A stretch of DNA of 64,000 nucleotides from NCBI RefSeq assembly GCF_000024725.1, contig NC_013960.1:3582001-3646000 (forward strand), given 5' to 3'. Under the pieces are notes generated by a model that was given only the letters and a program-made list of their open reading frames with translations, ran no database searches and was not told where the DNA came from. Of this stretch, positions 19,560-20,634 are shown piece by piece. The translations under genes and the position numbers were made by a program. Each line of letters starts with the position of its first letter. The first letter of the stretch is position 1. Source of the stretch: Nitrosococcus halophilus Nc 4 (lineage in GTDB: Bacteria; Pseudomonadota; Gammaproteobacteria; Nitrosococcales; Nitrosococcaceae).

Positions 19560-19847
19560 TTAAGCTGCGGGTAAGTTAATGGTGTTAATGCTGTCCTCGT
19601 CCAAGGACACATTAGCGCCGGCAGAGTCGATGATGCTAACTACCTGATTTTGGTTCACGATCTGAATTTGATCTGCAAAGTACTGGTTAACCCGGAAATG
19701 CTGGTTGACTTGTAAAGGAAACCCCCTTTGGCCTCCCTGGCGGTAGGGAACAATCCAACCCCACAGCCAACCGCCACGTATCGCAGCCCGCTCCTGGGGA
19801 TCCAAAGTTCTGCTTTCATTCAAATCTCTGATAGTAATGGTTGCCAT
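19560..19847 (-). CDS. Double-glycine-leader peptide precursor (putative bacteriocin/RiPP-like)
   Basis: A 95-residue precursor starting at ATG 19847, with AGGAGAA 7-8 bases upstream. The leader MATITIRDLNESRTLDPQER ends in AAIRGG at residues 21-26, matching the widespread 'DL..S..LD..A...(I/V)RGG' leaders cut after Gly-Gly by C39 peptidase-containing exporters. The rest, about 69 residues, begins WLWGWIVPYRQGGQRG. It then becomes rich in Gln, Asn and Val (VNQHFRVNQYFADQIQIVNQ) and ends with an acidic segment. No exporter or modification enzyme is adjacent, so it would depend on a system encoded elsewhere. The role is not known. Confidence 0.7.
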   Translation of the reverse strand: MATITIRDLNESRTLDPQERAAIRGGWLWGWIVPYRQGGQRGFPLQVNQHFRVNQYFADQIQIVNQNQVVSIIDSAGANVSLDEDSINTINLPAA

Positions 19848-19889
19848 TAATTTTCTCCTGCTCGATAAACCAGCCCAATTTTTATCCAA

Positions 19890-20223
19890 AATGATGCATA
19901 AAGCGCACCATGACAGGAGGATAGAAAGCTAAATCATAACAAAGGCCTGATCTATATAACCTTATCTTTTGTGCATTAATTTTCTTCTTCCTCTAAAAGG
20001 AGCCCTGTTACCACAAAATGTGGGATTTTAAATAAATTCGGCAACTGAATTTGTTGGGAAAAAACTACCATTTCTGTCCTTCTTTCTCAAGAAACCAACC
20101 AAACGTAACGTAATATAAGGATAAATTTGAGGATCCTCTGGAATCTCTGCCGAGGATAAAAACCCAGGAGTCTTGTTAAGACTCCCCGACGAAGAGTAAC
20201 CTTATAATAACTTTATTTTGAAC
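19890..20223. other. Noncoding region between the peptide gene and the csp promoter
   Basis: AT-rich and without a plausible gene. It contains a small perfect hairpin, GGAGTCTT-GTT-AAGACTCC, at 20167-20185. The promoter of the minus-strand peptide gene should lie in its left part. Confidence 0.5.
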
Positions 20224-20252
20224 TTGTAATTGTCCCCTTTGTCTCCTATGAT
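20224..20252 (+). promoter_or_regulatory. Sigma-70 promoter and long leader of the cold-shock gene
   Basis: TTGTAA (20224-20229) and TATGAT (20247-20252) are spaced by 17 bases. Transcription would begin near 20259, giving a 5' untranslated leader of about 165 bases before the csp start. Long leaders of this size are characteristic of cspA-type cold-shock mRNAs. Confidence 0.6.
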
Positions 20253-20424
20253 ACAAAGCGCTAGAGTATTAAGGATCGCGTTTTCGTGTTAGCGTAGTAG
20301 TTTTTGTTTTTCCTTCCGAATTCATATCTGCTCCAACTCGTTCGCCCTGCAATACTCAGTTCTACCCACTGACATTTCCAACGAGAGTGTCAGGCAGATA
20401 CATCATTTTTTTTGAGAGTTTTCT

Positions 20425-20634
20425 ATGTCAGAACAGCAGACAGGAACCGTAAAATGGTTCAATGATTCAAAGGGTTATGGATTTATACAGCGGGAAAGCG
20501 GTGGTGATTTATTTGTGCACTACCGTTCCATCGTTGGTCAAGGTCACAGAACCCTCAAGGAAGGTCAACAGGTTAGCTTTGTTGAAGTACAAGGCCATAA
20601 AGGTCCTCAAGCCGACAATGTTATTGTTTTATAA
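20425..20634 (+). CDS. Cold-shock protein, CspA family
   Basis: A single cold-shock domain of 69 residues that binds single-stranded RNA/DNA. RNP1 is KGYGFIQ and RNP2 is DLFVHY, within the canonical [17 protein letters not shown] opening. The usual FVHFSAI reads FVHYRSI. It is followed by a terminator-like hairpin and then an RRM protein gene and a DEAD-box helicase, a combination suited to RNA remodelling in the cold. Confidence 0.95.

Follow-up and report, generated by a model that had tools for sequence, protein, structure and literature searches.

The question raised by the locus at positions 19560-19847 is how a small double-glycine (GG) leader peptide would leave the cell, and what it might do outside, when no transporter gene lies within the 64-kb stretch analysed (the window; positions 3,582,001-3,646,000 of the 4,079,427-bp chromosome of Nitrosococcus halophilus Nc 4, whose genome also has a 65,833-bp contig). 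The original prediction gave the gene, here called P0001, these exact coordinates but omitted the strand, which is the minus strand. The reading frame comprises 95 codons plus a stop (TAA, 19560-19562). Its ATG at 19847 is preceded, with a 7-nt gap, by a Shine-Dalgarno sequence, AGGAG (19855-19859, minus strand), unlike the alternative TTG start of a longer ORF (19889), which lacks such support. Residues 1-26 (19770-19847), MATITIRDLNESRTLDPQERAAIRGG, make up the leader, with cleavage predicted after G25-G26. The remaining 69 residues (19563-19769) form the predicted exported core, 23% of which are Asn or Gln. The features initially ascribed to this product (GG leader, 69-residue core, WLWGW start and repeated V-N-Q units) are all present, with three VNQ triplets, a number reached by 1 in 10,000 shuffles.

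Comparison indicates that P0001 is a real gene. Its ortholog in the sister species (G003) is 97% identical and lies in the same gene neighborhood; between the two, 3 codons have changed non-synonymously and 7 synonymously (binomial p 0.0035, the neutral expectation being 75%). To this substitution pattern is added the lengthwise alignment of 38 distinct family members (see below). Pfam and NCBIfam searches with P0001 and its relatives gave nothing above any cut-off; matches to LcnG-beta and TIGR04149 were dismissed as weak and mostly due to leader resemblance. Pattern searches of the genome contigs with P0001 and with alignment A1 returned no loci, the patterns being too strict for the family, and a match to P0001 at locus L005 was rejected as a chance match and not a peptide gene. 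An AlphaFold single-sequence model (pLDDT 47.5) was uninformative on the fold, and an Rfam scan found nothing near P0001. The segment upstream of a nearby cold-shock gene (20425-20634, plus strand) is 94% identical in the sister species over 216 nt (20209-20424) and has no Rfam match at the gathering threshold; the rest of the intergenic region, from there towards P0001, cannot be aligned with the sister species.

Relatives of P0001 were found in genome G660 (41% identity over 80 residues, E 6e-15), where the gene adjoins a PP2C gene, and in G219 (E 1e-7), where it adjoins an autotransporter homolog. A profile of this peptide type, designated P, matches 65 of 258 relatives of G660 (G660 included); because the named plasmid matches belong to Caballeronia spp. 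and Burkholderia stagnalis, the group was read as Burkholderiaceae. Alignment of 38 distinct P peptides, including P0001, revealed shared residues in the leader (D8, L9, L15 and G25) and throughout the core (W27, G30, W31, I32, P34, N48, Q62, N65 and Q66). The core signature W..GWI.P[YF] maps to W27-x-x-G30-W31-I32-x-P34 in P0001 (19746-19769, minus strand), its W27, G30, W31, I32 and P34 being invariant in all 38 members. A hidden Markov model of the Burkholderiaceae cores scored the P0001 core at 25 bits, the best of 1000 shuffles reaching 10.9; by this measure, the kinship is one of the core and not of the leader alone. The homologues also keep the cleavage site, with Gly at -2 in 38/38 and GG or else GA/GS at -2/-1.

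The original prediction held that the partner transporter is encoded elsewhere. A PF03412 search of the genome returned two C39 proteins above cut-off, encoded at 147 kb and 847 kb; P0001 lies at 3,602 kb. One of the two fits as an exporter. The 847-kb protein (hereafter the PCAT) is 1016 amino acids long and carries, besides its C39 domain, two cNMP-binding domains, ABC_membrane and ABC_tran. The C39 domain keeps the catalytic Q, C, H and D residues, and the association of a cNMP region with these residues and with ABC domains places it among long-type C39 exporters, as HetC and PteB. Its neighbors encode PpiC, HlyD, OEP (an outer-membrane channel) and a two-FHA protein; a sigma-54 activator, an FHA/sigma-54/Fis-HTH regulator and a PP2C; an autotransporter beta-domain protein and a Sel1/caspase-like protein; and a Ser/Thr kinase as well as a VWA/FHA protein, next to whose gene, at 833,962, a GG peptide is encoded. 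The gene for the latter protein, which joins Sel1 repeats to a caspase (C14) domain (L046, 404-3073), is conserved alongside the export genes of G219 and G252. PADLOC matches to kinase, cNMP, ABC and caspase domains were set aside as generic domain matches that are not evidence of defence. The 147-kb C39 protein is 228 amino acids long and starts with a signal-like stretch. Its surroundings (145.8-149.6 kb; L045, 9835-13595) encode, besides this periplasmic peptidase, a coiled-coil/barrel outer-membrane protein and three small proteins with a Sec signal and 'MD.VTAG' near the N-terminus, one of them rich in A, Q and N. This Fap-like locus may be a functional-amyloid system in its own right, in which a FapD-type cleavage motif is visible.

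Is the PCAT the partner? Two partly overlapping genome samples, of 369 genomes (class) and 279 genomes (phylum), were used to compare the distribution of leaders and transporters. Some C39 match is present in 153 of the 369 class-sample genomes. Leaders at E<1e-8 are confined in this sample to the present genome (G000), G219, G252 and G261, and the three highest-scoring C39 domains are those of G219, G252 and G000, in ORFs of about 1030-1050 amino acids. These three transporters are 70-73% identical over about 1015 residues and have the same neighbor genes. The association of leader and close PCAT is significant (Fisher p 4.8e-7; 5.7e-5 if all listed C39 ORFs of 1000 amino acids or more are counted). 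Since "close PCAT" was defined only after the scores were known, the phylum sample was used as a second one and queried with the N-terminal 430 residues of the PCAT. The only close relative was that of G660 (66%), seven others showing 29-38% identity, and leaders at E<1e-4 occurred only in G660 and in the present genome (p 2.6e-5 with the present genome counted, 0.0036 without). All six leaders of G660 are on the PCAT contig, within 23 kb around the PCAT gene. Within the genus, two Nitrosococcus species have both peptides and C39 proteins, and two congeners have no leader peptide and no C39 peptidase over cut-off. The seven distant cNMP-C39 transporters (G591, G521, G548, G462, G465, G575 and G552; L136-L142) are about 1070-1100 amino acids long, one being in a 732-codon open frame, and their host genomes lack a leader of the P0001 class; presumably, these transporters export other substrates. 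An exception to the pairing is G261, a draft of 190 contigs, which encodes two GG-leader peptides of the same class (L127, 1132-1338 and about 873-1097) and has no C39 match at E 1e-5 or better; its exporter is either missing from the draft or different.

Synteny in Burkholderiaceae points the same way. The PCAT gene (68-72% identical) is present in 20 of 20 fetched P loci, accompanied by PP2C, sigma-54, PpiC, HlyD and FHA genes unless cut off by the limits of the 15-20 kb fetched. P and PP2C genes are separated by 16-134 bp in the 14 loci measured, and an A-type peptide gene (see below) lies upstream of the OEP gene, on the same strand and within 800 bp, in 14/14 measurable loci. The designation of P0001 as an orphan is thus true of the window but not of the biology of a family that is syntenic with its transporter in Burkholderiaceae. 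Co-occurrence and synteny together support the proposal that export is by a C39-type ABC transporter whose gene lies outside the window. Two observations had been named in advance as counting against this proposal, a genome devoid of a C39-type exporter and homologues devoid of the GG site; neither was made, since the exporter is present and the homologues keep the site.

The leader of P0001 was originally described as textbook. Substrates of PCATs have hydrophobic residues at -4, -7 and -12, the -7 residue forming a knot with the peptidase (PMC6959990). The P family as a whole follows this rule, with Met at -7 in 36 of the 38 members. In P0001, the GG is present and Leu at -12 and Ile at -4 fit C39 recognition, but the -7 position, where a hydrophobic residue is expected, is an atypical Arg, so that the word textbook does not quite apply. 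From what is known of the family, P0001 would be cut after GG and exported by the PCAT.

Upstream regions were scored for the sigma-54 (-24/-12) pattern TGGCACG-N4-TTGCW, using weights that we set from the known consensus. For 36 of the 38 P genes, a site was found that outscored 98% of shuffles, and at least 12 of these sites are perfect; they are located 53-87 nt before the ATG, and near-consensus forms are found upstream of Burkholderiaceae P genes. In the present genome, a score of 13.7 or more was reached by 9 of the 12 peptide genes or sets of such genes, compared to 2 of the 97 controls (p 2.7e-9). The candidate site of P0001, TGGTGCGCTTTATGCA (19895-19910, minus strand; GG-N10-GC), begins 63 nt upstream of the ATG and scored a modest 12.9 out of 16.4, a value that about 3 of the 97 controls reach and that makes it weaker than the sites of related genes. 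The site at the same place in the sister species, TGGCGCACTTTATGCA, scored 13.7. A sigma-70 scan gave nothing convincing directly upstream of P0001. The B and C peptide genes (see below) have no clear -24/-12 site of their own; in this genome, the B genes closely follow A genes. The excess of -24/-12 sites over controls supports the assignment of the P and A peptide genes to the sigma-54 regulon.

P0001 is one of about 16-17 GG-leader peptides scattered in the genome. A search with a leader-only profile (A2), of the kind that the original prediction had called for, yielded 16 at E<1e-10, and 16 peptides were found in the sister species at E<1e-8. In nearly all the peptide genes of the genome, the ribosome-binding site is purine-rich and resembles AGGAG or GAGGA. 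The P core type is represented by P0001 only. The A type is present in seven copies (WGP.GD.F..VNP.Q.I.QFQG..N.VGNNVANFG..NTNTQNQ.AQNNVNVG) and the B type in three, each adjoining an A gene; divergent core types include that of the peptide at 833,962. Two adjacent GG peptides are encoded at 1038.5-1039.1 kb (L084, 8532-9066), one with a PGPTFP repeat core and the other with a glycine-rich, amphipathic-looking, bacteriocin-like core. Asn and Gln account for 21-26% of the P, A and B cores; among 1251 stretches of 69 residues from proteins of the window, the mean was 8.1% and the maximum 21.7%. None of the P, A, B and C types matched Pfam or NCBIfam above cut-off. In particular, no curlin or Fap repeat family was matched by the A, B or P types, and for this reason the peptides were not filed as curli or Fap.

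Genome comparison demonstrates a family, a predicted partner and a predicted promoter type for P0001, and suggests how the system might work. FHA-domain proteins, including the sigma-54 activator, would read Ser/Thr-kinase/PP2C signalling, as the gene content suggests. Sigma-54 would then transcribe the P gene and the genes of the A type from -24/-12 promoters, in line with the sites described above. The peptidase of the cNMP-cNMP-C39-ABC transporter would bind the leader and cut after Gly-Gly, and the transporter, working with HlyD, the OEP channel and the PpiC-type foldase, would export the mature core; co-occurrence, synteny, the intact catalytic residues and family knowledge all argue for this step. 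Here the P gene, being remote from the transporter, would work in trans. Sigma-54 transcription with cleavage and export by the PCAT is very probable for the family and probable for the P0001 copy itself. Outside the cell, the P, A and B cores would most likely serve as an adhesive or fibre-forming surface or matrix polymer, with the multicopy A type as bulk subunit and the single-copy, highly conserved P type as adaptor or nucleator. Composition and analogy bring this polymer role close to, though still short of, an even chance. Of the three roles first envisaged for the core (bacteriocin, signal or matrix component), matrix or surface is the favored one. Taken whole, structural role included, the interpretation of P0001 as the precursor of a P-type substrate in a dedicated, sigma-54-controlled type I peptide-export system seems to us evenly balanced between right and wrong. 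Counting against it are the Arg at -7, the weaker -24/-12 site, the broken PCAT locus of the sister species (see below) and the leaders of G261. Somewhat less likely than not is a bolder reading, that of a proteobacterial system whose PCAT, controlled by phospho-signalling and sigma-54, exports a fixed N/Q-rich set (P, A and B, plus the shorter C) that co-assembles extracellularly into a surface polymer through a functional-amyloid route independent of curli/Fap or Sec, P being the conserved nucleator or anchor.

The best experimental analogue of the system proposed here appears to be that of Synechococcus elongatus, where the GG-motif proteins EbfG1-4, which belong to the biofilm matrix, are exported by the C39 ABC transporter PteB (PMC4997328) and three of the four, EbfG1-3, form amyloids (PMC9981879). 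In both cases, several small GG-leader proteins are served by one C39 ABC transporter, and the domain organization of PteB is said to resemble that of HetC. The likeness seen is one of systems and not of cores; in the present genome, the substrate genes are dispersed, with promoters of the sigma-54 type, and the transporter gene is accompanied by genes for kinase, phosphatase, FHA, caspase-like and autotransporter proteins. Cyanobacterial bacteriocin clusters of groups I and II (Wang et al. 2011) likewise combine a long N-terminal extension of the C39 transporter with HlyD and a rotamase/SurA-type protein (PMC3140520). Their precursors are NHLP, N11P, HetP and others, and Gly, Cys, Ser and Thr abound in the NHLP/N11P cores, whereas the types found here are P, A, B and C, of which P, A and B are N/Q-rich, and have no Pfam or NCBIfam match above cut-off.

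A GG leader and a C39 ABC exporter form the classic export route of class II microcins and bacteriocins, such as colicin V with CvaB, and P, A and B might accordingly be multi-component antibacterial toxins. The adjacent A/B pairs recall two-peptide bacteriocins, and one peptide of the genome has the glycine-rich, amphipathic-looking core SLAIGGLVGGITAAALGEKVG. However, inspection of the ORFs beside the P and A/B genes revealed no evident small membrane, immunity-like product and no immunity gene was recognized; the locus is rich in signalling genes; and the cores are polar and N/Q-rich, occur as repeated copies of one type within the genome and, in the case of P, have been kept across distant families and not diversified. 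We regard the toxin interpretation as unlikely. The peptides might alternatively be pheromones, perceived by a surface or cytoplasmic receptor that feeds the kinase/phosphatase/FHA/sigma-54 circuit. The wealth of signalling parts at the PCAT locus would accord with such a role, as would the requirement for the related exporter HetC in cell differentiation (PMC10986499). HetC of Nostoc PCC 7120 is likewise an exporter of the cNMP-C39-ABC kind, and its cNMP domain, which binds ppGpp, is essential (PMC10986499); HetC has no known substrate and no membrane-fusion gene nearby, whereas a full export set and candidate substrates are found here. A pheromone would nonetheless be expected to be smaller than these cores of about 70 residues and to occur in fewer coexisting types and copies; among the genes, none was recognized as a receptor, and the N/Q enrichment suggests assembly, so that a signalling role, too, appears improbable.

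A different possibility is that P0001 is a fading remnant, moved away from its transporter and inefficiently exported, of a family that is functional elsewhere. The Arg at -7, the weakened -24/-12 site and the remote location would all be in keeping with this, and so would the decay of the transporter locus in the sister species. There, 8 of the 13 genes of the PCAT locus (L082, L131), including the PCAT gene, are broken by in-frame stops or frame changes, and the peptides are intact all the same. Genes elsewhere in the fetched stretches of that species are mostly intact (8 of 50 broken, or 5 of 47 without partial matches; p 0.002 or 0.0004), which makes sequencing error a disfavored cause. 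The decay of the locus suggests that the Nitrosococcus branch may be losing the system, even though its peptides persist. On the other hand, the ORF of P0001 and its Shine-Dalgarno sequence are intact, its few codon changes are mainly synonymous (3 non-synonymous against 7), W27, G30, W31, I32 and P34 are all kept and the genome encodes a transporter with intact catalytic residues; we therefore doubt that P0001 is a remnant. Least probable is processing by the periplasmic FapD-like peptidase at 147 kb, which was suspected at first: the enzyme is unbroken in both peptide-bearing species, has a coiled-coil/barrel protein and 'MD.VTAG' proteins with a Sec signal as neighbors and is 10-14 kb from some peptide genes. 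It was set aside because the periplasm is where FapD-type enzymes work (PMC5557850), a Sec signal is lacking in the GG peptides and the Burkholderiaceae synteny is with the PCAT. The Fap system (FapC/FapD/FapF) also has a C39-type peptidase and N/Q-rich extracellular subunits (PMC5557850), but its FapD is periplasmic and carries a Sec signal.

The interpretation preferred here, of P0001 as substrate of a dedicated, regulated exporter, concerns a system found in Nitrosococcus, in many soil relatives of Burkholderia and in a few other bacteria. Judging from the open-access literature, in which we found no paper joining the peptide, exporter and regulator genes, it appears to be undescribed. Four matching plasmid records list no gene at the peptide (the PLSDB gene table is incomplete), so such a system may be easily overlooked. 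The finding connects a family of peptides that lacks annotation with one particular exporter, with regulators and with promoters, in Burkholderiaceae as well as in Nitrosococcus and other Gammaproteobacteria. Through the predicted tie between peptide and exporter, the substrates and the role of a long-type (HetC/PteB-like) C39 exporter would become testable in ordinary soil bacteria.
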